This document shows positions 180-30,207 of a stretch of 49,263 nucleotides of DNA, piece after piece. This DNA is from Acidimicrobiia bacterium (lineage in GTDB: Bacteria > Acidobacteriota > Vicinamibacteria > Vicinamibacterales > UBA2999), in assembly GCA_016871275.1 (NCBI GenBank), contig VFZG01000025.1, forward strand, positions 1 to 49,263. The letters run 5' to 3'. The notes under the pieces were generated by a model, which had not been told where the DNA came from, did not search any database, and saw nothing but the letters and a program-made list of their open reading frames with translations. The position numbers were made by a program, and so were the translations under genes. The first letter of the stretch is position 1; each line of letters starts with the position of its first letter.

Positions 180-423
180 GCAGTGAGAGTACCGTTTAGG
201 AGTTTGCTGACAAACCTACCATGACGGGGATCGACACGACGCGGCGATCGCACTACCATGGCGGCATGCGAGGAGACGATCGTCAGCCAGCGGCCCTGTT
301 CAGTTACGTGTCGACGGAATCGCGTGTCCCGGCGGATCGCCCCCGCGGGCCTCGCGCCATCGAGCAACCAGGTGTTGTTCCCTGGGCCGGTCAGGGTGCC
401 CGGATTGCGCGCTGGAATACTCG
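180..423. other. No gene seen
   Basis: This stretch lies between the left-edge fragment and the stop of the beta-barrel gene. Open frames exist on both strands, but none shows a recognisable motif, a ribosome site or a plausible protein composition. No clear terminator follows the beta-barrel gene. Confidence 0.4.
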
Positions 424-1668
424 TCAGAAGAACCATCGCACGCGCGCAAAAGCAAAGTCACGATCACGAAATCGCGAGAGGGTGTCTGTGCCGTCAGCCT
501 CCCCGAAGAATGCGCCCCCGGAGACCTCCAGCGCCACGTTGTCGCGCACGGTCCAGGCGGCAACGCCCCGGACAAATCCGGAAGCGTCCACCGGGTTGCT
601 GACGCCAAACACCCGCACCATGTAGCGATCTCGCGCAAACCGGCGCTCAATCGAACCAATTAGGCTGAGATCGTGATTCACGACCGTTGGCCCGTCCATC
701 GACCAGTCGCGATGCCACACCACCGATGTAAACACGCGATAGTCACCTGCTGATCGATCGACGCCCACCCCGGCATCGATTGCCGCACGATCCGGAAAGT
801 ACGCCGTCTCGGCGCGAATCGCCCACGGCCCCACAATCGCTTCGGCATCTGCCGCCACCATGGTGAAGCGCGCATACCGCTCAACGAGTGTGCCCACCAC
901 GAGGGGAATCGGCTGCGCCAGGATCGTCGGGTCGATGAACACCGATGGTTCCAGCGATACAGTGCCAAACGACTCGCAGCCTCGATAGGCCGACACGCTC
1001 GCGTCCACACGTCCAAGCGTTGTGGACAAACGCCCGCCGCCCTGCAGGCTGCTCCACGTCGCCTTAGGCTCCCGCCGGTCAAGGTTGTCAACCAGCCCCG
1101 CCGGCAGCACCAGGTCCCGCAGCAGGTTGAAGGGCGACGTAGCCTCGTCGAGTTCATCAAACCGTCCGCGCCTGCCAGGGAGACTGACGATGGCTTCGAG
1201 GGAAGTATCGTCGGTGAAGAACAGCCGGGTGCGTGCGAAGGCCACGGGCAAGCGCGCCTCCGCCCGCCCCTCGAGGAAATAACGCGCTGACTCGACGGGA
1301 TTCAGAACGTCGGACGGCATGATCTCGTCGAGCCGCCCCCAGACAAGACGGCCGTATCCCACGCGCACATCCACCTGGGAGCCACGGACCTCCACCCACG
1401 CATCTCGTGCGCGCGCGATCGCATCGTTCACGCGTCCGCTGCGGTCGGCCACAAGCCCATCCACCGAGCCATCAAACTTGAGCCGGAGCCACGACGTGGG
1501 ATCTGCGGTCACTTCCAGCCTGGCCCGGCTGCGAAGTTCCTGTGTGCCTCCCCCCTCGGGCTGATTCGGCATCGTCATGCCGAGCACACTGACTTCGCCG
1601 CCCACATCGATTTTCTGTGCGTGGGCAAGAGTGGGGATGAGGACCAAAAGGAGCGCAAGGGTCCTCAT
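424..1668 (-). CDS. Outer-membrane beta-barrel protein of an RND/LolA-like operon
   Basis: The 414-residue protein starts with a signal peptide (RTLALLLVLIPTLAHA, cleavage before QKID) and ends in Trp-Phe-Phe. A terminal Phe is the usual last residue of barrels inserted by BamA. The body is rich in alternating polar and aromatic residues, and a segment near residues 100-135 (GYGRLVWGRLDE, then DVLNPVESARYF) resembles DUF1302/alginate-export-like barrels. Its ATG overlaps the stop of the upstream permease gene as TAATG, so translation is probably coupled. The operon order (carrier, permease, barrel) suggests that it is the outer-membrane end of a lipid or hydrophobic-substrate transport path. 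The substrate is unknown. Confidence 0.8.
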   Translation of the reverse strand: MRTLALLLVLIPTLAHAQKIDVGGEVSVLGMTMPNQPEGGGTQELRSRARLEVTADPTSWLRLKFDGSVDGLVADRSGRVNDAIARARDAWVEVRGSQVDVRVGYGRLVWGRLDEIMPSDVLNPVESARYFLEGRAEARLPVAFARTRLFFTDDTSLEAIVSLPGRRGRFDELDEATSPFNLLRDLVLPAGLVDNLDRREPKATWSSLQGGGRLSTTLGRVDASVSAYRGCESFGTVSLEPSVFIDPTILAQPIPLVVGTLVERYARFTMVAADAEAIVGPWAIRAETAYFPDRAAIDAGVGVDRSAGDYRVFTSVVWHRDWSMDGPTVVNHDLSLIGSIERRFARDRYMVRVFGVSNPVDASGFVRGVAAWTVRDNVALEVSGGAFFGEADGTDTLSRFRDRDFAFARVRWFF

Positions 1669-3998
1669 TAGGCCACCTCCGCAGTGTGATCCGCGCGGCG
1701 TACCGCGTCGGCTCCGAACAGCTTCGGGAAGGTCTTGATCGTGGCGGGCAACGCAAAGACCTCCGCTAGAAATGCGACTACCATCGTAAGCGCCAGCAAG
1801 CCGCCGAACCAGGCGCTTGGCTGGTACTCGGACAACATCAACACGCCGAACGCGCTGCAGTTGACGATGGCCGTGGTCAGCGCGGCGCGGCCTTCATGAA
1901 TCGTCGCCGTCTCAATCGCTTCGTCGGTGGTGGCGCCCAGATGGGTTTCTCTCCGGTACCGGTTGAGGAAGTGGATCGTATCGTCATCCACGACGCCCAG
2001 GGCCACACTGGCCACCATGACTGTGGCCACATTCAGGGAGATGTCGAGCCACCCCATCACACCAAACACCATCAGGACAGGGAACAGGTTGGGCGGAATC
2101 GACAGCAGCCCGAATCGCCACGACCGAAACACGATGAAGATGACGGTGAACACCATCAGGAACGCCATGGCGAAGCTCGAAATCTGCGATCGCACCAGAT
2201 AGTGGTCGAGCGTGCTGAAGAGGCGCCCCGACCCGGTCACCGTGGCGACCACGCCGGAGTCCGCGAAGATGGATTGCGCCAGCCGGTCGGCCTCGTTGAC
2301 CTGCACAAACACCAGATCCGAACTCATCGACGCCAGCTTCACCGTGATCTGGGCACGAGAGTAGTCGGACGCCACGATACGATCGAGCTCCGCCCGGCCT
2401 TCATCACCCAGACCAAACACCAGCAGTTCCTGGGCGATCTCCTGCGAGGACGCGGGGACGACATAGGTCTCCGGCCGGTCGTCATTCAGCTCACGGTGGA
2501 CACGCTTGACGTAGTCCGCCAGCGACGTGACTTTCTTGACATAGGGCAGAGTCGAGAGCTCCGTCGCGAGTCGGTCCATCCTGGCCAGCACGTCCGGGCG
2601 TTGCATGACGTCGGGCCCCCCTTCCAGAAAAATCTGGAACGTATAGATCCCCGACAGTTTGGTGTCGATCACCTGCGCCGACGTGTAGAGTTCGTGCCGC
2701 TCGCTGAAGAAGTTGATGTGGTTGGTATCGACCTTGAGCCGGGTCGCGCCAGCCACTGACACGGCCACGACGACGGCGCCGATGGCCAGCACCGCTGTGG
2801 CGTGACGAGTCGAGAACATCGCCACGCGGCGCAGCGGACCGATGAACCAGGTCTCCTGGGGAATCTCCGTCGTCTCCGGCTTCACCCAGGCCAGCATCGT
2901 CGGCACCAGGATGATCGAGATCGCGAAGTCGACCATGACGCCCGTGGCGGCGCCAAGGCCAAATTCGCGCACAGCCACGACCTGGCTGGTCGCGAGTGAC
3001 AACATGCCGAGGGCAGTCGTCAGGCTGGCGCTAAAGATCGGCGCAAGGAGATGACTGACCGTCGCGATGAATGAGTCCTCGTGTGACTGCGTCCGCCGGT
3101 GGTGGCCGTAGTGCTGGAGAATGTGGACGTCGTCGGCCACCGCCAACACGACCACAAGCGGCACGATCATGCTGCTCAGGACGTTGAAGCTCATCCCGAA
3201 GAGGTCGTAGAGGCCGAGCGTCCAGAACAGGCTGACGAGGATGGCGCCGAACGTCAGCCACGTCTTGCGCCAGGACCGGAACATCAGGAACAGCGCACCG
3301 AGCGTCAGCACGAAGATCGGCGGCGTGAATTTCAGCTGGTTATCGAGGGTGACCCGGTTGTACCACTCGGTGATTTCGAGGCTGCCGTTGTAATGGGCCT
3401 TGAATCCGTCCGGCAGGCCGGCAGACACCAGTTGGCGGATCCGTGCCAGCACGTCGGCGCGCACGTCATCGATCCGTGACTCGTCGAAAAATACGACGAC
3501 GGCCGTGACGGTGCCGTCTTTGGAAATGAGATCGCCGCGGAAGAGTTCGTCCTCGATCGCCCTGGCGCCGATGGCCTCCGGCGTGGATGTGTCGAGGTCG
3601 TTAAGGAGGCGCCGCACGCTGAGACCGCCGTCTCCATCCGGTGTCGACGCCAGGGCGTCCACGATCGTGGCAGTGGCGAGGCTGCTGACCCGCTGCACGG
3701 CTTCGACACGTTTGATGTCTTCGCTGAGTCGTGTCAGGAAGTCGAAGGACTCCGCGCTGAACAACCGGTCGCGCGACGGGGCCTCAATCGCGAGGATCAG
3801 GGTGCGGGTGCCGCCAAACTCGGTCTGGAAGCGTTCGTAGTCCTGGTAGACCGAGTCCTCGCGCGAGAACCACGCGGTCAAGTCGTTGTCGATGTTCTGG
3901 ATCTGCGCGCGTGGCGCGAGCAGGACTGCTCCGATGACGACAAAGCCCGACAGCCACCGCCGCCAGCGGTAGATGAAGCGCGCGACGCGGAGGCTCAC
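1668..3998 (-). CDS. MMPL/RND-family inner-membrane permease
   Basis: This 776-residue protein has the two-fold RND layout. Each half has one N-terminal membrane helix, a large periplasmic loop and a bundle of helices. The paired transmembrane signatures are visible: VLAVADDVHILQHY in the first half and ALGVVDDDTIHFLNRY in the second, the acidic motif used for proton coupling. The family includes hopanoid/lipid exporters and Patched-like proteins rather than drug pumps of AcrB size (over 1000 residues). The start is GTG, overlapping the upstream stop as GTGA. Together with the LolA-like protein and the barrel it probably moves a lipid or lipoprotein across the envelope; the cargo cannot be read from sequence. 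Confidence 0.88.
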   Translation of the reverse strand: MSLRVARFIYRWRRWLSGFVVIGAVLLAPRAQIQNIDNDLTAWFSREDSVYQDYERFQTEFGGTRTLILAIEAPSRDRLFSAESFDFLTRLSEDIKRVEAVQRVSSLATATIVDALASTPDGDGGLSVRRLLNDLDTSTPEAIGARAIEDELFRGDLISKDGTVTAVVVFFDESRIDDVRADVLARIRQLVSAGLPDGFKAHYNGSLEITEWYNRVTLDNQLKFTPPIFVLTLGALFLMFRSWRKTWLTFGAILVSLFWTLGLYDLFGMSFNVLSSMIVPLVVVLAVADDVHILQHYGHHRRTQSHEDSFIATVSHLLAPIFSASLTTALGMLSLATSQVVAVREFGLGAATGVMVDFAISIILVPTMLAWVKPETTEIPQETWFIGPLRRVAMFSTRHATAVLAIGAVVVAVSVAGATRLKVDTNHINFFSERHELYTSAQVIDTKLSGIYTFQIFLEGGPDVMQRPDVLARMDRLATELSTLPYVKKVTSLADYVKRVHRELNDDRPETYVVPASSQEIAQELLVFGLGDEGRAELDRIVASDYSRAQITVKLASMSSDLVFVQVNEADRLAQSIFADSGVVATVTGSGRLFSTLDHYLVRSQISSFAMAFLMVFTVIFIVFRSWRFGLLSIPPNLFPVLMVFGVMGWLDISLNVATVMVASVALGVVDDDTIHFLNRYRRETHLGATTDEAIETATIHEGRAALTTAIVNCSAFGVLMLSEYQPSAWFGGLLALTMVVAFLAEVFALPATIKTFPKLFGADAVRRADHTAEVA

Positions 3999-4840
3999 CG
4001 GGCGCCTTGCTCCAGCGCCCGACGGCTGAAGTCCGCGGCGGTCAAGCCGACGTTGTACTCGACTTTCTCCACCACGAGTTCCGTGCGGGTTCTCTGGAGC
4101 GTGTCCACCATCACCATCTCGAGCACAGTCCAGATGCCGTTGACCCGCTCGAGTCTTTTCACGTCGAACACTTTCTGCAGTTCATCGCGCCGGTTGTGGA
4201 CCTCGCCGCGTACGACCACAAAGTTGTCCTGCCGGACGAGCGAGACGACGCGCGGAAACTTCGCTTTGGGATCACGGGTGCGCGACTCAAGGCGGAACAC
4301 CGGATGCACCGTGCCGTCAGGAGCCGTCCAGCGACTGGTGTCATCGATCAGCCGGTAGGTATAGTCTTCGAACTCGCGGCCGCCGATGTCCTCGTAGGTG
4401 AAGTCGCTGCCCATGAAGCTGTCCTGGGTCTCGCTGCCGGCGATACGGCGTACACGGCCAAGCGACGGCAGATACAGGAAGCGTTCATTCTCACCCTCTG
4501 GATTTTCCCAGACGAGAAAGCCGGTGCCATTGATGTCGTTAGGGTAGGTGAAGCGTGTCAGCGACCGATCGCCGGGCACGGCGCGACCCGCGCCACCCTT
4601 CATCCCGAGCGTCGACAGCGCGCGCTCACGCACGCGGCCCTGCCGATCGAACAGGCGCATGCGCATGGTGGAACGGCTGTCGCGACCGGTGTCGCGGTCC
4701 TGCACCTGGCGCGCGATTTGGGTTCCGCGTTCCTCTGCAGAACGTGACTGGGGGAATGTGGTCGCCTCAAGAAAACGCTCGTTCCCGGCCCAGGTATGAA
4801 GGAAGGGCGTTATGAGGAAGAGAGATAAAAGGCGAGACAT
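3995..4840 (-). CDS. LolA-like outer-membrane lipoprotein-sorting protein
   Basis: The 281-residue form starts at the ATG at 4840, which has GGAAG just upstream and opens a clean signal peptide (SRLLSLFLITPFLHTWA). Longer open frame upstream overlaps the promoter, so I do not use it. The mature part matches the LolA-like family (PF17131): MRMRLFDRQGRVRE early, then GTGFLVWENPEG and a PSLGRVRRIAGSETQDSFMG stretch near the middle, followed by FTYEDI. Such proteins adopt the half-barrel fold that shields lipid moieties in the periplasm. It is the first gene of a three-gene operon with an RND permease and a beta-barrel, and is likely the periplasmic shuttle of that system. Confidence 0.85.
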   Translation of the reverse strand: MSRLLSLFLITPFLHTWAGNERFLEATTFPQSRSAEERGTQIARQVQDRDTGRDSRSTMRMRLFDRQGRVRERALSTLGMKGGAGRAVPGDRSLTRFTYPNDINGTGFLVWENPEGENERFLYLPSLGRVRRIAGSETQDSFMGSDFTYEDIGGREFEDYTYRLIDDTSRWTAPDGTVHPVFRLESRTRDPKAKFPRVVSLVRQDNFVVVRGEVHNRRDELQKVFDVKRLERVNGIWTVLEMVMVDTLQRTRTELVVEKVEYNVGLTAADFSRRALEQGAR

Positions 4841-4925
4841 CGTTCTTCCGTTGACAAACAGCTTCCGGGGAAAGGAAGCCGTGCGGGTCACTGACAAATA
4901 GCGTTGGCCGGGTGCGCCTATCCGC

Positions 4926-4954
4926 ATTGTGTGAAATGTTTCACAAAGAGTCAA
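4926..4954 (-). promoter_or_regulatory. Sigma-70 type promoter of the LolA-like/RND/barrel operon
   Basis: On the minus strand the -35 is TTGACT (4954-4949, five of six consensus bases). A 17-base spacer follows, then the -10 CACAAT (4931-4926, four of six). Transcription would start near 4919, leaving a leader of about 80 bases before the ATG at 4840. A palindrome fills most of the spacer. Confidence 0.65.
4929..4946. promoter_or_regulatory. Rex-like (or CRP-like) operator inside the promoter spacer
   Basis: The plus strand reads TGTGAAATGTTTCACA at 4930-4945, two perfect 7-base arms with two bases between. On the minus strand, 4946-4929 reads TTGTGAAACATTTCACAC, which matches 13 of the 14 fixed bases of the Rex consensus TTGTGAA-N4-TTCACAA. 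The core TGTGA-N6-TCACA also fits CRP-type sites. Its place between -35 and -10 favours a repressor, and a rex gene lies in this window. Confidence 0.55.
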
Positions 4955-4993
4955 GGCCATAATGCACCAAGAGTTTCGCTCTTGGTTCGCCTA

Positions 4994-5207
4994 TCAGCGT
5001 GGATACTGCTTCCTGACGTGCTTTACGAACTGACTGATGAGCTTCTTCAGGGTCGGCAGATGCAGATCGGACAGGCGCTTCACATACAGGCACGACTTGC
5101 CGGTCGAATGGGGACCGAGTTTCGCCATCAACTCGGGATACCCGTCGAATCCCGCCATAATGTTCAGGGTCAGATTCTGTTTCCGGGGGGACGTCGACGC
5201 TACGCAA
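4994..5207 (-). pseudogene. C-terminal remnant of a DUF1801 domain protein
   Basis: The minus strand encodes SPRKQNLTLNIMAGFDGYPE followed by LMAKLGPHSTGKSCLYVKRL, then SDLHLPTLKKLISQFV, and a TGA at 4996-4994. This is the typical C-terminal half of DUF1801 proteins. The N-terminal half is missing: upstream only RFGSCVAST remains, where family members have a longer GFGSYHY-type segment. The break lies where an IS3 transposase tail begins on the other strand, so insertion and later decay is a likely cause. There is no start codon, so the remnant is not expected to be functional. Confidence 0.75.
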
Positions 5208-22059: not shown

Positions 22060-23165
22060 GACCCACCGGTCCTGAACGTCAACGTGAAGGGCGCCATCGC
22101 GCCATCATCGGTGCCCCTCACGCCTTCCAGGATCTCCATCTTCACCAGTCGGAACGGTTCGAACGGAGCGGAGGGGCGAATCTCCAGCGCGCGATTCTCC
22201 CGGGTGTAGTTGGTCGTGAACGCGATCGGCGCGTCCTGCCTCGCGCTACCCGGCTGGTAGGTGAGTCGCACCCGGTCCTTCAGCGTCGCCACGTTCAGGT
22301 CACGCGACAACTGCATGCGAATGCGCTCCGCCAGCCGCACATCGGCCTCGCCCTCTGCGGGGGCCGTAAACAGGACCTCAACCGGCGGAGGGGGCGGCAG
22401 CTCGATCGCCGCTTCGGCGGTTTCTTCCGGCGTGGGCGCCAGCTCGATGCGGGTGCCGTCGAGCCACGTCAGACCCTTGGCCGAGCGAACCGTGCCTTGC
22501 ACCTTCACCCAGCGTCCGGTGTCGATGCGCTTGCTCGGATCGAACGTGAAGTCGCGGCCCTTTGACGGCACGCCCATCACCCAGAGGGCGGCGTCTCCGG
22601 CGCGCAGCACGAACTGGTGGCGGTTCTGGGCGGGAGCCTCCGGCAGGTCGCCGAACAGGTTGCGGCCGCGATACTGACCGGTGATCGTAACGTTCTGCGC
22701 GTCGAAGCGGGCAGGTTCCATCGCCACTGCTCTCAGGGGAGGCGTGGTCGCGTCGGTCGCCGTGGGCGGCGGGGCCGTGCCGCCAAGCAGCAGAATCAGC
22801 TCTTCACCTGGTTTAGGCCATCGCTCCTGATAGGCCGAGCGGATCCGCTCGAGGAGACTGAAAGGGATGAGCCGCGGGTCGTCTTGCGACATCCGCCCGA
22901 TGTCGAGGAGCTGGCCGCGAGCCTCCAGACGTCCTTCGCGCACTTCGCGCGCAATCAGGGTGATGGCACCTTCGTCGGTGCCGATTGTGGCGCGTTCGGG
23001 ACTGCCTTTCACGTCGCCGATGACCAGCACCGTCTGCTGGTGATAGAAGCCGGAATAGGCCCGAATCGCCGTGATGGTCGTGGCGCGACGGGGCTGGGGC
23101 TGTGCCGCAGCCGTCATGCCGAGCAAGGCCACGCAAGCCAACCCGAGGAACGTCCGGGAGCGCAT
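22056..23165 (-). CDS. Secreted protein with C-terminal bacterial Ig-like domain
   Basis: The 369-residue protein has a signal peptide (cut near AAA-QP). The central part includes two OB-like beta segments, NVTITGQYRGRNLFGDLPEA and GRWVKVQGTVRSAKGLTWLD, reminiscent of nucleic-acid-binding OB or 'tRNA-anticodon-like' strands but without clear evidence of that role. Residues about 265-365 (VLFTAPAEGEADVRLAERIR through FTLTFRTGG) match the SbsA/Big_5 Ig-like domain. It follows the OPT transporter gene by 9 bases on the same strand, so it is likely its operon partner. Function unknown. Confidence 0.75.
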   Translation of the reverse strand: MRSRTFLGLACVALLGMTAAAQPQPRRATTITAIRAYSGFYHQQTVLVIGDVKGSPERATIGTDEGAITLIAREVREGRLEARGQLLDIGRMSQDDPRLIPFSLLERIRSAYQERWPKPGEELILLLGGTAPPPTATDATTPPLRAVAMEPARFDAQNVTITGQYRGRNLFGDLPEAPAQNRHQFVLRAGDAALWVMGVPSKGRDFTFDPSKRIDTGRWVKVQGTVRSAKGLTWLDGTRIELAPTPEETAEAAIELPPPPPVEVLFTAPAEGEADVRLAERIRMQLSRDLNVATLKDRVRLTYQPGSARQDAPIAFTTNYTRENRALEIRPSAPFEPFRLVKMEILEGVRGTDDGAMAPFTLTFRTGGS

Positions 23166-23174
23166 CTACGTTTC

Positions 23175-25136
23175 TTACACCTTCCGTTGTGCGAATCTCA
23201 CGAGAATAGCGGCGAGCACGAAGAACATCCCCGCGCCCGCCCATTGTCCGAAGTCACCGTCACGAAGCAACGGCATGGCGCCGCCGACCCCCTGGAGCGT
23301 CGAGAGCACGGTATAGCCGCGTTGCTCCAACCCCACCAAGACGGCAAACAGGATGCCCGCCAGCGAACCGCCGGCGATCAAGCCTGAGCTGAACAGCGTG
23401 CCGGAGCTCAGGTCGGAATCGCTGCTTTCGCCGGTCTTGCGCTCGACGAACCAGCGCACCAGGCCGCCGAGGAAGATTGGTGCGGTGGTGGCGATTGGCA
23501 GGTAGGCGCCCACCGCGAACGACAGCGAGTGCACGCCGCACAGTTCGAGCGTCACCGCGATGAACACGCCCACGAGCACGAGACCCCAGGGCAGATCCTG
23601 CGACAGCAACCCCTTGATCAGCGTGGCCATCAGCGTCGCTTGCGGGGCGGCGACTTCGGCCGAGCCGATGCCGAACACCTGGTGCATGTACAGCACCGTC
23701 AAGCCGATCACGAACGCGGAGGCGACCGCGCCGATGGCGAGACCCATCTGCTGGTAGATCGGCGTGGCGCCGACCAGGTAACCGGTCTTCAGGTCCTGCG
23801 AGGTGTTGCCGGCGTTCGCGGCGCAGATGCAGACCAGGGCGCCCACGGAGATGGCCACCGGCGCATAGACGTCACCGGTCCAGCCGAGCGCCACGAAGAT
23901 TACACAGGTGATGATCAGCGTCGCGATGGTCATGCCGGAGATCGGGTTCGACGATGAGCCGATCAGGCCGGTGATGCGTGACGACACCGTCGCGAAGAAG
24001 AAGCCGAAGACGACGATCAGGACGGCGGCCAGCACGTTGCCCTGCGTCGGGAGGCCCGGCATCACCGCCAGGAAAACGGCCAGCGCCAGCGAGCCGCCGA
24101 GCACAATCTTCATCGACAGGTCGCGCTCGGTGCGGATCGTGCCGCCGCCGGCACCCGAGCCGAATCCCTTGAACCCGTCGCGCGCCGACGCAATGATGGT
24201 CGGCAACGTGCGGCCCAGGGTGATCAGGCCTGCGGCCAGCACCGCGCCGGCGCCGATGTAGCGGATGTAGGCGCTCCAGATCTGTCCCGGACTCATTTCT
24301 GAAATCAGGAACGGCTGTCCAGTGGCCGGGTTGTTGACCATGCCCGGATGGATGGGAGGGAACGCGTTCAAAATCGCCGCGCCCAGCAATGACAGCAGCG
24401 GCAGCAAGACCAGCCACGACAGCACACCGCCGGCGACCATCGTCCCGGCAATGCGCGGGCCGATCACGTAGCCGACGCCCATGTACTCCGGCGAGAGATC
24501 GACGTTGACGGTCGCGTTGGGAAACTGGCTGGTGGGCGGCGCGCTATAGCCGACTTCGGCGAGGAACAGATTGAAGATGTTGGTGAACGACTTGAACAGG
24601 GCGCCGATGCCAAGGCCGCTGAACACCAGCGCCGCCAGCTTGCCGCCACGCTCGCCCGCGACCAGCACTTCCGCGCAGGCGGTGCCCTCGGGATACGGCA
24701 GCACGCCGTGCTCCTTGACGATCAGGGCGCGGCGCAGCGGCACCATCATCAGCACGCCGAGAATGCCGCCGGCAAACGCCAGCATGGTGATCTGGGTGTA
24801 GTTGAAATACTTCGGCCCTTCGGGCACGAGGAAGATCAACGCCGGGATGGTGAACACCACGCCGCCGGCAATGGCTTCACCGGCCGATCCGATCGTCTGG
24901 ACGATGTTGTTCTCCAGGATGGTGGACCCGCCGAGCCTCTTGAGCACCGAGATGGCGAGCACTGCGATCGGAATCGACGCGCTGACCGTGAGGCCCGCGC
25001 GCAGTCCGAGGTACACCGTGGACGCGCCGAACAGCAGTCCGAACAGGACGCCGAGAATCACCGCCTTGGCGGTGAACTCCGCCATCGACTGATCTGCGGG
25101 GACGTAGGGCTGGAACGGCTTGGTGGGGCCTGCCAT
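23175..25136 (-). CDS. OPT-family oligopeptide or metal-chelate transporter
   Basis: The ATG at 25136 gives 653 residues starting MAGPTKPFQPYVPADQS, just before the first membrane helix; upstream frame is not credible as coding and crosses the promoter. About 15 hydrophobic helices are present. Family landmarks are ENNIVQTIGSAGEAIAGGVV near 95, PYPEGTACAEVL near 165, and the SNPISGMTIATLI segment in the second half. Bacterial OPT proteins carry peptides or metal complexes with proton symport. The gene diverges from rex across 107 bases and starts 7 bases after a TAGAAT hexamer, suggesting a leaderless message. Confidence 0.9.
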   Translation of the reverse strand: MAGPTKPFQPYVPADQSMAEFTAKAVILGVLFGLLFGASTVYLGLRAGLTVSASIPIAVLAISVLKRLGGSTILENNIVQTIGSAGEAIAGGVVFTIPALIFLVPEGPKYFNYTQITMLAFAGGILGVLMMVPLRRALIVKEHGVLPYPEGTACAEVLVAGERGGKLAALVFSGLGIGALFKSFTNIFNLFLAEVGYSAPPTSQFPNATVNVDLSPEYMGVGYVIGPRIAGTMVAGGVLSWLVLLPLLSLLGAAILNAFPPIHPGMVNNPATGQPFLISEMSPGQIWSAYIRYIGAGAVLAAGLITLGRTLPTIIASARDGFKGFGSGAGGGTIRTERDLSMKIVLGGSLALAVFLAVMPGLPTQGNVLAAVLIVVFGFFFATVSSRITGLIGSSSNPISGMTIATLIITCVIFVALGWTGDVYAPVAISVGALVCICAANAGNTSQDLKTGYLVGATPIYQQMGLAIGAVASAFVIGLTVLYMHQVFGIGSAEVAAPQATLMATLIKGLLSQDLPWGLVLVGVFIAVTLELCGVHSLSFAVGAYLPIATTAPIFLGGLVRWFVERKTGESSDSDLSSGTLFSSGLIAGGSLAGILFAVLVGLEQRGYTVLSTLQGVGGAMPLLRDGDFGQWAGAGMFFVLAAILVRFAQRKV

Positions 25137-25143
25137 GCGCGGG

Positions 25144-25149
25144 ATTCTA
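25144..25149 (-). promoter_or_regulatory. -10-like hexamer of the OPT gene
   Basis: TAGAAT on the minus strand ends 7 bases before the ATG at 25136. No good -35 and no Shine-Dalgarno are seen, so a leaderless or near-leaderless message is likely. Confidence 0.4.
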
Positions 25150-25226
25150 GCAGGCTCCCTGTGATGTGACGGCCGGGCACCGCCTCCGCCGAGCAATTCG
25201 ACGCCGGCCGGAGCGCGGAATTGAGT

Positions 25227-25254
25227 TATCCTGCAAACGTCTTGTGAACTCACA
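25227..25254 (+). promoter_or_regulatory. Start region of rex: TATCCT hexamer and TGTGA/TCACA palindrome
   Basis: TATCCT (25227-25232) lies 11 bases before the GTG. The palindrome TGTGAACTCACA (25243-25254) overlaps the start codon. It has the same half-sites as Rex operators but only two bases between TGTGA and TCACA, where the consensus has six, so autoregulation is possible but unproven. Confidence 0.35.
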
Positions 25255-25912
25255 GAACAAGCGGAAGACGGCCTCCGAGCCGGTCTCCGAGCTCACGACG
25301 AATCGACTGTCGGTCTACCTGCGCTGCCTCAACCAGCTCGAAGCCGCGAGTGTGGAGACCATCTCGTCGCAAGCGCTCGCCGAGCAGTTCCACCTCAACG
25401 CCGCCCAGATCCGGAAGGACCTCGCGTATTTCGGTGAGTTTGGCGTGCGTGGCGTGGGTTACTACGTCAAGGACCTGAAGCGCCACCTGCGGCAGATCCT
25501 CGGGCTCGACCGCAAGCTGCGCGTCGCGGTGATGGGCGCCGGCAACCTCGGCCTGGCGCTGGCGGACTATCCCGGCTTCAGGCGCGAAGGCTTCGAGATC
25601 GTGGCGATGTTCGACATCGCCGACGCGAAGATCGGCGACCGCTCGAAAAGCGGCGTCCCGATCCACGACCTGAAGGAGCTGAAGAAAGTGGTCCGCAGGG
25701 ATCGCTTCGATATCGCCGTGATCGCGGTCCCGGCTGAATCGGCGCAGCGTGTGCTCGAGCAGGTGGTGGCGGCCGGCATCAAGGCGGTCTTGAATTTCTC
25801 GCCCGGAGCCATCAAAGTGCCTGCGGGTGTGAAGATGAAGAGCGTGGATCTGACCGTCTCTCTCGAAAGCCTCTCGTTCTACCTGGCGCAGGGGATCGAC
25901 GATGGCCACTAA
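25244..25912 (+). CDS. rex: Redox-sensing transcriptional repressor Rex
   Basis: The 222-residue form begins at GTG 25244 (NSQNKRKTASEPVSELTTNR). Residues 15-75 are the winged helix with the family signature LAEQFHLNAAQIRKDLAYFG and EFGVRGVGY. Residues 90-205 are the NAD(H)-binding Rossmann domain with MGAGNLGLAL (97-106), and the C-terminal helix contributes to domain swapping. Rex senses the NADH/NAD ratio and releases DNA when NADH is high. The moaC start lies inside its last codons. Within the window the best operator match is in the promoter at 4926-4954. Confidence 0.93.
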   Translation: MNSQNKRKTASEPVSELTTNRLSVYLRCLNQLEAASVETISSQALAEQFHLNAAQIRKDLAYFGEFGVRGVGYYVKDLKRHLRQILGLDRKLRVAVMGAGNLGLALADYPGFRREGFEIVAMFDIADAKIGDRSKSGVPIHDLKELKKVVRRDRFDIAVIAVPAESAQRVLEQVVAAGIKAVLNFSPGAIKVPAGVKMKSVDLTVSLESLSFYLAQGIDDGH

Positions 25913-26423
25913 TCCGCCGTCGCGGTCCGCGCCGGCGCGCCGGCCTCGCCAGGCGCAACCGGCGTTGACGCACGTCGACCGGAAGGGCCGCATCCGCATG
26001 GTCGACGTCGGTGACAAGCCGGTGACCGATCGCGAAGCGGTGGCGCGCGGCTCGATCGCGATGTCGAAGGACGCCCAGACGCTGATTCAGTCCGGCAACA
26101 ACAGGAAGGGCGATCCCATTCAGGCGGCGCGACTCGCAGGCATCATGGCCGCGAAGAAGACCAGCGAGCTGATTCCGCTGTGCCACCCGCTCGCCCTGTC
26201 GCATGTCTCGGTCGACCTGACGCCTACCAAGCAGGGCTACGACATCGAGTCGCGCGTGCGCATTTCCGGTCAGACCGGCGTCGAAATGGAGGCGCTGACC
26301 GCGGTCGCGGTGGCCGCCCTGACGCTCTATGACATGGTCAAGGCGGTCGACAAGTCAATGGTGATCGGTCACATCGAGCTCGTCGAAAAAAGAGGCGGGC
26401 GCTCAGGCCACTATCGCAGGTGA
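25902..26423 (+). CDS. moaC: Cyclic pyranopterin monophosphate synthase MoaC
   Basis: MoaC converts the MoaA product into cyclic pyranopterin monophosphate in molybdenum cofactor synthesis. The 173 residues include a 20-residue basic N-terminal extension before the conserved THVDRKGRIRMVDVGDKPVT. Signature motifs are present: KKTSELIPLCHPL (about 86-98) and GVEMEALTAVAVAALTLYDM, then KAVDK (about 126-150), which contain the active-site His, Glu, Asp and Lys. The gene overlaps rex by 11 bases and the next gene by 4, so the three are translated as a unit. No other moa gene is seen in the window. Confidence 0.93.
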   Translation: MATNPPSRSAPARRPRQAQPALTHVDRKGRIRMVDVGDKPVTDREAVARGSIAMSKDAQTLIQSGNNRKGDPIQAARLAGIMAAKKTSELIPLCHPLALSHVSVDLTPTKQGYDIESRVRISGQTGVEMEALTAVAVAALTLYDMVKAVDKSMVIGHIELVEKRGGRSGHYRR

Positions 26424-27400
26424 AAGTCCTCGTCTCGATCCAGCAGCCCGTCCATCAGTGGCAGATTCCGGCTGACGGCGTGGCCAGGCTGCGTCAGCGC
26501 TTTCCCGACGTCGAGTTCATTCACGCGACCAGCGATGAGCAGCGTGCCGCCGGGCTGACGGACTGCGACGTCGCCTACACCTGGATCCTGAAGGCCGCCG
26601 AAGCGGCGGCCGCCGAGCAGCTGCGATGGGTGCACACCTCGGCAGTGGCGGTTGAGACGATCTGCCTGCCGGAGCTGTTCGCGCGACACATCCCCGTGAG
26701 CAACAGCCGCGGCGTGCAGGCCGTGCCGATTGCCGAGCACGTGATGGCGGTGGTGCTGGCGCTGGCGAAGCAACTGCCGTTCGCGCTGCATCACCAGCGC
26801 GTCGCGCGGTGGGTGCAGAACGAGTTCACCGGCCCGCGCATCCCCTGGCTGCTGAAGGGGCGTACCCTCGGCGTGATCGGCGTCGGCACCATCGGCGCCG
26901 AGATTGCCGCGCGCGCCAACGCGTTCGGCATGCGCGTGATGGCCATGCGCCGCCGCTCGACGCAGCCGGTCGACGGCATCGAGCGCATCTTCGGCGGCGA
27001 GCAGCTCGATCAGTTTCTCTCCCAATGTCACGTGCTGGTGATCGCCGCGCCGCTCACGCCGCAGACGCACTCGCTGCTGGGGGCGCCGCAGTTCGCCCAA
27101 CTGCCGAAGGGGGCAATCGTCGTCAACGTCGGCCGCGCGAAGATCGTCGATACCGACGCGCTGATGGGCGCGCTGGAGTCCGGTCATCTTGGCGGCGCCT
27201 CGCTCGACGTGTTTCCGCTGGAGCCGCTGCCCCCAGAGCACCGGCTGTGGAAGATGCCGAACGTGATTCTCACGCCCCACACCTCCGGGTTCCGCCAGGG
27301 ACACTGGGACGAGGTGGTCGATCTGTTTGCGGACAACCTCGATCGATTCAGGCGGGGTGAGGCGCTGAGATTCAGGGTTGAGCCGGATTTGGGGTACTGA
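26420..27400 (+). CDS. D-2-hydroxyacid dehydrogenase family protein
   Basis: The 326-residue protein (GTG start overlapping the moaC stop as GTGA) belongs to the NAD(P)-dependent D-isomer hydroxyacid dehydrogenases, which interconvert 2-hydroxy and 2-oxo acids. The nucleotide-binding loop GVIGVGTIGAEIAA is at 151-164. The catalytic set is complete: Arg239 (VNVGRA), Glu268 (PLEPLP) and His287 (TPHTSG). The residue after the second strand is followed by RRRSTQP, which suggests NADP preference; this is inference. Being in one operon with the NADH sensor Rex fits a redox role. The substrate is not known. Confidence 0.87.
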   Translation: MKVLVSIQQPVHQWQIPADGVARLRQRFPDVEFIHATSDEQRAAGLTDCDVAYTWILKAAEAAAAEQLRWVHTSAVAVETICLPELFARHIPVSNSRGVQAVPIAEHVMAVVLALAKQLPFALHHQRVARWVQNEFTGPRIPWLLKGRTLGVIGVGTIGAEIAARANAFGMRVMAMRRRSTQPVDGIERIFGGEQLDQFLSQCHVLVIAAPLTPQTHSLLGAPQFAQLPKGAIVVNVGRAKIVDTDALMGALESGHLGGASLDVFPLEPLPPEHRLWKMPNVILTPHTSGFRQGHWDEVVDLFADNLDRFRRGEALRFRVEPDLGY

Positions 27401-28111: not shown

Positions 28112-28888
28112 CTACAGCTTCAGGTACGCCCTCAGGCGTCGGGTGTGCGATCGGCTGACCGGGATTTCCGTCGCCTTCGCGTCTGTCATCCTGAGGATGT
28201 AATTCCGGCTGAACCACGGAACGATCTCCTTCACCTTGTTGATGTTCACCAGGTGCGATCGGTGGACCCGCCAGAACACCTCGGGATCGAGCCGCTCGTG
28301 CAGCTCTTCCAGGGTCCGGTCGTTGGACGTCCCCGATACCTGATCCGTCACTATAGTAATCGAATCCTCGACGAGGGACGCATGAATGATGTCGTCCGCA
28401 TGCACGAGCACGAATCGGTCGCTGACTTTGACGGCCACCTGATCGCGGCGGCCTTGCTGGCCCGCCATCATCCGGACCAGCCGGTCGAGCTGGCCCGCCA
28501 GCGGCTCCGGCTCGCCGCGGCGCTTGCGGGCTCGTGAGACCGCCGTTTCCAGCCGGCCCGGGTCCACCGGTTTCAACAGGTAGTCAACGGCGTTCACTTC
28601 GAAGGCCTCGATGGCGCGCTGGTCGAATGCTGTGACGAAAATCACGCCCGGTCCGGTTCCCGACTCCATCAACTTTCTGGCGACTTCAAAGCCGGTCAGG
28701 CCCGGCATCTGGACATCGAGAAAGGCCACGTCCGGCCTCCGCCTGGCAATTTCATCGAGCGCCTCCACGCCGTTGGCCGCCTGGCCGACGACCTCCACGC
28801 CCTGCAGCTGGCCCAGCAGGAAGCACAACTCGTCCCGCGCCAGCTGCTCGTCGTCTGCCACCACCGCGGTCAGCGCGCCCGGCGTCAT
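28112..28888 (-). CDS. LytTR-type response regulator
   Basis: The 258-residue protein has a receiver domain (1-120) with Asp12-Asp13, the phosphorylation site Asp58 (FLDVQMP), Thr86 and Lys106 (LLKPVD). The LytTR DNA-binding domain follows at about 150-257 (VSDRFVLVHADDIIHASLVE, FWRVHRSHLVNINKVKEIVP). LytTR regulators bind direct repeats near promoters and commonly control envelope, attachment or transport genes. The start overlaps the stop of the histidine kinase gene by 4 bases, so the pair is one two-component system. Targets are not visible in the window. Confidence 0.92.
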   Translation of the reverse strand: MTPGALTAVVADDEQLARDELCFLLGQLQGVEVVGQAANGVEALDEIARRRPDVAFLDVQMPGLTGFEVARKLMESGTGPGVIFVTAFDQRAIEAFEVNAVDYLLKPVDPGRLETAVSRARKRRGEPEPLAGQLDRLVRMMAGQQGRRDQVAVKVSDRFVLVHADDIIHASLVEDSITIVTDQVSGTSNDRTLEELHERLDPEVFWRVHRSHLVNINKVKEIVPWFSRNYILRMTDAKATEIPVSRSHTRRLRAYLKL

Positions 28889-30207
28889 GCGGTAATCCGG
28901 TCGTCGATCGGATGGGTAAATGGCAGCTCCACGCGCGCCACCGACCCCTTGCCGGGCGAACCGACGAGCACAAACCGGCCTGACGCGCCATACAGGACGC
29001 GCAATCGCTCGCTGACGTTACTGAGGCCGATGCCCGTCGACAGCGCATGCGGCACCCGCTCATCCGAAATGCCCAGGCCGTCGTCTTCGATCTCAATGAT
29101 GGCCAGGTCGCGTTCGCGGCGGCTGCGAATCGTGATGGTGCCGGGGCCGACCTTCCGGGCGAAGCCGTGCTTGATGCAGTTTTCGACCAGCGGCTGCAGC
29201 AGAAGGCTGGGCACGATGATGTCCAGGGTTTCCGGCGCAATCGACTTTCTGACCCGCAGGCGCGAACCGAAGCGGATGACCTCGATGTCGAGGTACTCGT
29301 CGATGGCGGCGAGTTCGTCACGCAGCGTGACGAACTGCTGCTGGCTCTGCAGCAGTGTTCGCAGCAGGCCCGACAGCTTCTGAATCACCGCCCGCGCAGT
29401 TTCCGGCTGCGAGCGAATCAACGACGACACCGACGTCAGGGTGTTGAACAGGAAGTGCGGATTGATCTGGCTCTTCAGCGCTTCGACCTTGGCAGCGAGC
29501 AGCAGCTTCTCCTGCTCCTGGAGCCGGTGCTCGATTCGCGCGTTGTTCCAGATCTTGATCGGCGTCGACACGATCAGGACCGTCGCGATGTAGACCATCA
29601 GCGTGAGCCAGCGGTCGGGGCTCGACAGGTGAAAGAGCCGTAACGGATATTCCCGGCCCACCAGCTGGCGGATGAACTCGAGGCCGAGCGCGGCGAGCAG
29701 CAGCATCACCTGCCAGTTGACCTCCATGTCGCGCACCATGCGCCAGACATGGCGCGGCAGGCTGAAGATCATAAACGGCGAGAAACTCCAGATGTCTTCC
29801 TTGGGGCATGCTTCGCGAATCCCGCCGCCGGCAAAGCCGCAGCCCACGGCGAAGAACGGTGCGCCGTACTCGCCTGCGGCGAAGGCCGGCATGGACAGCG
29901 ATAGCCCCACGATGGCGCCGGTGTAGGGGCCGGCGATGAGCCCTGCCAGCAGCGCACCTTCGAGGGTGAGGTCGGCGGCGTCGTAGTTGAGCAGCACGCG
30001 GGCGGCGACCCCGGCGGTGATCGGGATTGCCAGACCCAGGGCAAAGACCAGCCGGTCCGGCCAGTTGCGCTGCTCGAAGATCAGGATGTGCCGGAAACGC
30101 CGGTAGCGCGTCAGCATGGTGGCCAGGGCCGCCATGGCCGCCAGCTTCACGACCAGCGTGGTGAGCAGAAACTGGTCGGCGCTGAGGAATTTGGGTTCTT
30201 GCAGCAT
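28885..30207 (-). CDS. LytS-type sensor histidine kinase
   Basis: The 440-residue kinase has an N-terminal membrane region of about six helices (residues 12-215) resembling the 5TM-LYT sensor, with a cytoplasmic linker coiled coil (222-245). The His_kinase domain shows INPHFLFNTLTSVSSLIR with the phospho-acceptor His251. The ATPase domain has LLQPLVENCIKHGF (N box, about 335-348) and DDGLGIS plus TGIGLSNVSERL (G boxes). It would autophosphorylate in response to an envelope or membrane cue and pass phosphate to the LytTR regulator encoded with overlap downstream. The signal is unknown. Confidence 0.92.
   Translation of the reverse strand: MLQEPKFLSADQFLLTTLVVKLAAMAALATMLTRYRRFRHILIFEQRNWPDRLVFALGLAIPITAGVAARVLLNYDAADLTLEGALLAGLIAGPYTGAIVGLSLSMPAFAAGEYGAPFFAVGCGFAGGGIREACPKEDIWSFSPFMIFSLPRHVWRMVRDMEVNWQVMLLLAALGLEFIRQLVGREYPLRLFHLSSPDRWLTLMVYIATVLIVSTPIKIWNNARIEHRLQEQEKLLLAAKVEALKSQINPHFLFNTLTSVSSLIRSQPETARAVIQKLSGLLRTLLQSQQQFVTLRDELAAIDEYLDIEVIRFGSRLRVRKSIAPETLDIIVPSLLLQPLVENCIKHGFARKVGPGTITIRSRRERDLAIIEIEDDGLGISDERVPHALSTGIGLSNVSERLRVLYGASGRFVLVGSPGKGSVARVELPFTHPIDDRITA

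Follow-up and report, generated by a model that had tools for sequence, protein, structure and literature searches.

The genes known to be controlled by the NADH-sensing repressor Rex serve mainly respiration, fermentation, and the metabolism of NAD and heme. In Streptomyces avermitilis, the accessible sections of the published description list complex I, ATP synthase and heme genes as Rex targets and place the Rex footprints between the -35 and -10 boxes of rex, nuoA1, and atpI (PMC5355995). The consensus operator of Rex is quoted, in the available part of another report, as TTGTGAA-N4-TTCACAA (PMC5317091). An exporter that resembles in part the operon considered here is AmeABCD, the monoterpene exporter of Castellaniella defragrans, for which the accessible text describes a DUF1302 outer-membrane protein, a LolA-superfamily periplasmic protein, and an HAE3 RND transporter together (PMC6394551).

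We analyzed a stretch of 49,263 nucleotides from an acidobacterium (the window, to which all coordinates refer unless stated otherwise) in which a LolA-like/RND/DUF1302 operon is preceded by a Rex-type palindrome (Table 1). The proposed mechanism is ordinary for Rex, whereas its target, an envelope exporter operon, is unusual. The likeness to the S. avermitilis regulon includes the 18-bp word, operators over or between the -35 and -10 boxes, and the targets nuoA, atpI, and hemA; in contrast, the available part of that report mentions no RND/LolA/DUF1302 exporter, and the sites at alternative complex III and nadA genes are a feature of the present case (PMC5355995). Compared with AmeABCD, the operon has three genes, with no AmeC partner recognized adjoining it, and the accessible text on AmeABCD makes no mention of Rex (PMC6394551). 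A search of the literature available without subscription found no report of an Acidobacteriota Rex regulon or of a Rex-controlled RND/LolA operon.

Table 1. Coordinates of the operator, the promoter, and the associated genes in the window.
Feature	Coordinates	Strand	Basis
Block that spans operator and operon (91% identity with L022)	348..5191		DNA comparison; likely horizontally acquired
DUF1302 protein, probably outer membrane	424..1668	-	PF06980 above gathering score
RND/MMPL transporter; best NCBIfam model is HAE3, short of its cut-off	1668..3998	-	Profile matches
LolA-like periplasmic carrier, PF17131	3995..4891	-	Pfam over cut-off; N-terminus in relatives; structure model
-10 box CACAAT, first 3 bases common with operator	4926..4931	-	Sequence; CANAAT in 13/13 unique aligned promoters
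Rex-type operator, 13/14 fixed bases	4929..4946		Sequence; site with at most one mismatch in 13/18 orthologous operons
-35 box TTGACT	4949..4954	-	Sequence; TTGAC in 12/13 unique aligned promoters, by eye
rex, repressor that senses NADH; conservation starts near 25268	25166..25912	+	Profile matches, alignment

Predicted exporter operon, promoter, and operator

Both PF06980 (DUF1302) and PF17131 (LolA superfamily) were found over their cut-offs in neighboring genes of the operon, and the RND pump scored 251.9 bits against TIGR00921 (HAE3), for which the cut-off is 351.9. The structure model of the LolA-like protein (mean pLDDT 82) has its closest solved fold in LolA3 of Porphyromonas gingivalis (9tp6; TMt 0.93, 33% identity), a protein from a different phylum than the window genome, and the model of the DUF1302 protein (mean pLDDT 34) was too poor for use. 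In the first-pass annotation the operon was described as lipid-export-like, a description that is read from the protein families; by analogy, the operon may export an amphiphilic, apolar, or lipid compound through the periplasm. For the LolA-like gene, GTG 4891 is a more probable start than ATG 4841 or 4960: in close relatives, the frame above ATG 4841 continues to encode a protein-like N-terminal stretch, in the window up to GTG 4891. The open frame from ATG 4960 runs across the operator, but this codon is not generally available as a start, since the related locus L103 has an in-frame stop immediately ahead of the operator; in L104, an in-frame stop closely follows it.

The palindrome reads GTGTGAAATGTTTCACAA on the plus strand and TTGTGAAACATTTCACAC on the minus strand, and it shares all but one of its fixed bases with the Rex consensus, as had been claimed. 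Under a first-order Markov model of the window, sites with at most one mismatch are expected at 0.0017 per window and at 0.135 per 3.96 Mb, compared with one observed in the window and three in its own genome. At up to two mismatches, 7 sites were observed in this genome against 3.1 expected, and at up to three mismatches 40 against 45; these looser matches are near chance counts and hence not enriched as a set, and only the nuoA site, which is backed by relatives, was used from the list with two or three mismatches.

The predicted promoter points leftward on the minus strand, with a 17-bp spacer between its two boxes (17 or 18 in the aligned orthologous promoters) and a leader of about 28 bases, as deduced from the position of the -10 box. 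Its earlier description as strong is only partly borne out, with five of six consensus bases at -35 and four of six at -10. The operator does lie between TTGACT and CACAAT, as first proposed, but its last three bases overlap the -10 box, and thus it is not wholly within the spacer. This arrangement is compatible with repression.

Orthologous operons were defined by matches at E ≤ 1e-60, with the addition of the fragment G031 and of two named records, L023 and L025; the loci in the records L022 and L024 are those already represented by G055 and G338. The comparison of upstream regions in related genomes showed that the promoter-fused site recurs with at most one mismatch in 13 of the 18 operons (G055, G199, G338, L023, L025, G059, G047, G050, G394, G035, G012, G014, and G031). 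In G047, the gene is split over two contigs, the second of which carries the site, and the G035 operator matches the consensus at 14/14 bases. No such site was found upstream of the remaining five operons, in G044, G011, G017, G009, and G387; Rex was detected in the first four of these, and the G009 contig ends 172 bases ahead of the matched start, so that its upstream region is only partly covered. In the alignment of the sites (14 rows, 13 of them unique, with the window included and G047 left out), the unique sequences agree at 13 of the 14 fixed bases of the operator, the flanking columns vary, and AAT follows the operator in every row. The one operator base that varies occupies position three of CANAAT, and by this pattern the single mismatch in the window falls on a base that the operator and the -10 box have in common. 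Operator, promoter layout, and conservation are all read directly from the DNA.

Outside the orthologous set, 76 more distant LolA-like loci, Porphyromonas among them, have no site with at most one mismatch within up to 600 bp upstream; one of them has a site with two mismatches and three have sites with three. The former is L081, where a Rex word lies 133 bases ahead of a Bacteroidetes LolA-like gene; no other of these distant loci has a match with up to two mismatches. The 17 low-identity paralogue loci in relatives showed no site with up to three mismatches.

Rex and its word at other promoters of the order

Only one Rex-type N-terminal domain was found in the genome; it is encoded by the rex gene of the window, about 20 kb from the operator, which confirms the gene noted in the first-pass annotation. 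This domain gave one match of 66.5 bits against a cut-off of 27 bits, and several NCBIfam Rex models were also over their cut-offs. In comparison with Thermotoga maritima Rex (7WB3), as far as the available part of its description lists the residues, the window Rex is identical at 9 of 12 DNA-contact residues and differs at E34Q, K43N, and S52A; the base readers R48, K49, R60, and G61 (T. maritima numbering) are all kept, and so are the NADH-switch residues Tyr100 and Asp191 (PMC8836258). Autoregulation of rex was considered and rejected, as no site with up to three mismatches was found near the gene (23000-26500). Near the probable rex start, the window contains a compressed palindrome TGTGA-N2-TCACA at 25242-25255 (TTGTGAACTCACAG). 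Further downstream, positions 28112-30207 encode a LytTR response regulator and a histidine kinase, likely a two-component pair.

A scan of 60 genomes (relatives, with the own genome included) revealed a site with at most one mismatch in 57 of them, with 131 matches to the forward pattern versus 5 to a reversed control pattern. The genome scan for the Rex word that had been suggested found the same word, not a different one, at nuoA and actA in the window genome and also at nadA in relatives. Upstream of nuoA, a site with up to two mismatches is present within 200 bp in 29 of 30 loci, the own genome included and G033 excepted. At 12 further, less similar nuoA loci, a site with up to three mismatches was observed in seven of the nine from Rex-bearing genomes (G059, G050, G038, G056, G041, G037, and G048). 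No site was found upstream of nuoA in the Rex-bearing G033, G055, and G053, nor, at up to three mismatches, in the Rex-negative G039, G051, and G026; G019 and G021, Rex-negative by search, belong to the 29 loci with a site. In the window genome, the nuoA site has two mismatches and the site at actA, which we assign to alternative complex III, has one.

The gene nadA counts among the established Rex targets, and we know of no established Rex control of actA. For each of these two genes, the 30 listed loci were used; matches occurred in 47 genomes for nadA and in 50 for actA. A site with up to two mismatches lies within 300 bp upstream of nadA in 21 of its loci, and one with at most one mismatch lies upstream of actA in 17, compared with none in either set for the reversed control; at these cut-offs, no site was found at 9 nadA and 13 actA loci. 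The identity of NadA was confirmed by Pfam, and the naming of alternative complex III is our own reading, supported by QrcA-type models, which score below their cut-off, and by a TAT-molybdopterin domain that exceeds its own. The actA site of the window genome also faces hemA. As a separate observation, 8 of the 30 actA promoters (L280, L281, L282, L285, L287, L288, L290, and L291) contain TTGATCCTTTTTTCACAA followed by a GGTA-type stretch, in which one Rex half site is kept in another promoter form. The window genome has no nadA match at E ≤ 1e-30, compared with one in seven of the eight same-genus genomes.

Of the three sites with at most one mismatch in the window genome, one falls within a reading frame that immediately precedes atpE (L002 1501-1518; G000 C14:68970-68987), with the same 18 bases in all eight same-genus genomes; this may reflect either constraint on the coding sequence or an operator internal to the frame. 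It was not counted as a target because the frame, which we take to be atpI, contains no Pfam domain. Five loci were read as ATP synthase operons; Pfam confirms two of them (L144 and L159), and the ORFs tried in the other three (L133, L134, and L145) gave no Pfam match.

Rex was not detected in 6 of the 60 genomes. The only three genomes without any site (G026, G039, and G051) are all among these six, and none of the 54 others lacks a site (P = 0.0006 under the assumption of independent genomes, a value made too small by their relatedness). The other three Rex-negative genomes, G019, G021, and G057, do have sites; their assemblies are 86, 91, and 74% complete, and thus rex may be missing from the assemblies. 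The co-absence of Rex and its word is therefore suggestive only. The presence of Rex and the recurrence of the word at other likely targets are, like the operator, features of the sequences themselves.

Alternative binders of the palindrome

The binder had been left open in the first-pass annotation on the grounds that the same core would fit CRP. The CRP consensus TGTGA-N6-TCACA is indeed matched perfectly in the operator, and three proteins of the genome exceed the Pfam cut-off for the Crp/Fnr family (PF13545). However, binding of a Crp/Fnr-family protein to the palindrome is unlikely. The recognition helix of CRP has the form R-E-x-x-x-R, which is found in none of the three proteins (T-I-E-T-A-I-R, T-L-E-S-A-I-R, and T-R-A-T-V-T-R), and on alignment of the first helix an I stands opposite the R of a mycobacterial Crp. 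Many of the nuoA, actA, and nadA sites carry TTGCGAA or TTGAGAA instead; these variants disrupt TGTGA yet preserve 13 of 14 Rex bases. Moreover, the three site-less genomes without detectable Rex do encode Crp/Fnr proteins, and placement over the -10 box fits a repressor better than an activator. The fit of the core to CRP thus stands, and CRP as the alternative binder is weakened by the helix residues and by the site-less genomes.

A local or other repressor, for example of the TetR family, that recognizes a similar word at this operon only is very improbable. Its dedicated site could require the partial conservation of the operator N4 that is seen in close orthologues (ACAT or AGAT), but the same four positions vary in distant ones (AGGT, AGAC, CCGA, GCAG, and GAAT), and the same word is found at the nuoA, actA, and nadA promoters. 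In addition, the right-hand neighbors of the operon are not regulators, according to a Pfam scan of 30 window ORFs that all lie to the right of base 423. Finally, a chance or coding-sequence match without function, as might be read from the open frame crossing the palindrome and from the site inside the frame before atpE, was rejected as exceedingly improbable by the pattern of invariant operator bases between variable flanks in the 13 unique sequences, and the in-frame stops in L103 and L104 argue against translation from ATG 4960 as a general rule.

Proposed switch and probable horizontal movement of the operon

The palindrome is most probably a Rex operator at which NADH is predicted to relieve Rex repression. 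The earlier reading, that Rex and the NADH level control the operon, is supported as a prediction by the same word at other targets and by the conservation of the site. We infer both the binding of Rex to the operator and the direction of the NADH effect. When NAD+ is dominant, dimeric Rex would bind TTGTGAA-N4-TTCACAA across the spacer and the -10 box and would exclude RNA polymerase. Upon a rise of NADH, as under limitation of oxygen or another acceptor, Rex would be released and the LolA-like/RND/DUF1302 operon transcribed. The genes for complex I and alternative complex III and, in relatives, nadA would be transcribed together with it.

At the DNA level, the 4.9-kb block that carries operator and operon is 91% identical to L022, the genome of another family, and L022 contains the G055 locus L103 letter for letter; G055 is filed in the order of the window genome. 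Between the same two genomes, protein identity is 93% for the LolA-like protein, 96% for the RND pump, and about 90% for the DUF1302 protein, and it is 71% for Rex, 63% for ActA, and 59% for NuoA. Eight genomes of the same genus, 80-100% complete, gave no match to the LolA-like protein at E ≤ 0.001. Based on the identity of the block and on the LolA-like gene not being found in same-genus genomes, we concluded that the operon has probably moved horizontally together with its switch, that is, that the block probably moved between families along with the operator.

We slightly favor the view that the locus is a mobile cassette, in which an HAE3-like export operon with a promoter-fused Rex operator joins the NADH-responsive regulon of its recipient and envelope lipid or amphiphile traffic becomes part of the respiratory redox response of the order. 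Should the exporter be under Rex control, envelope traffic would be coupled to NADH/NAD+ in a lineage with few cultured members. The conserved word also offers a testable Rex regulon for this order, comprising complex I, alternative complex III, and nadA.
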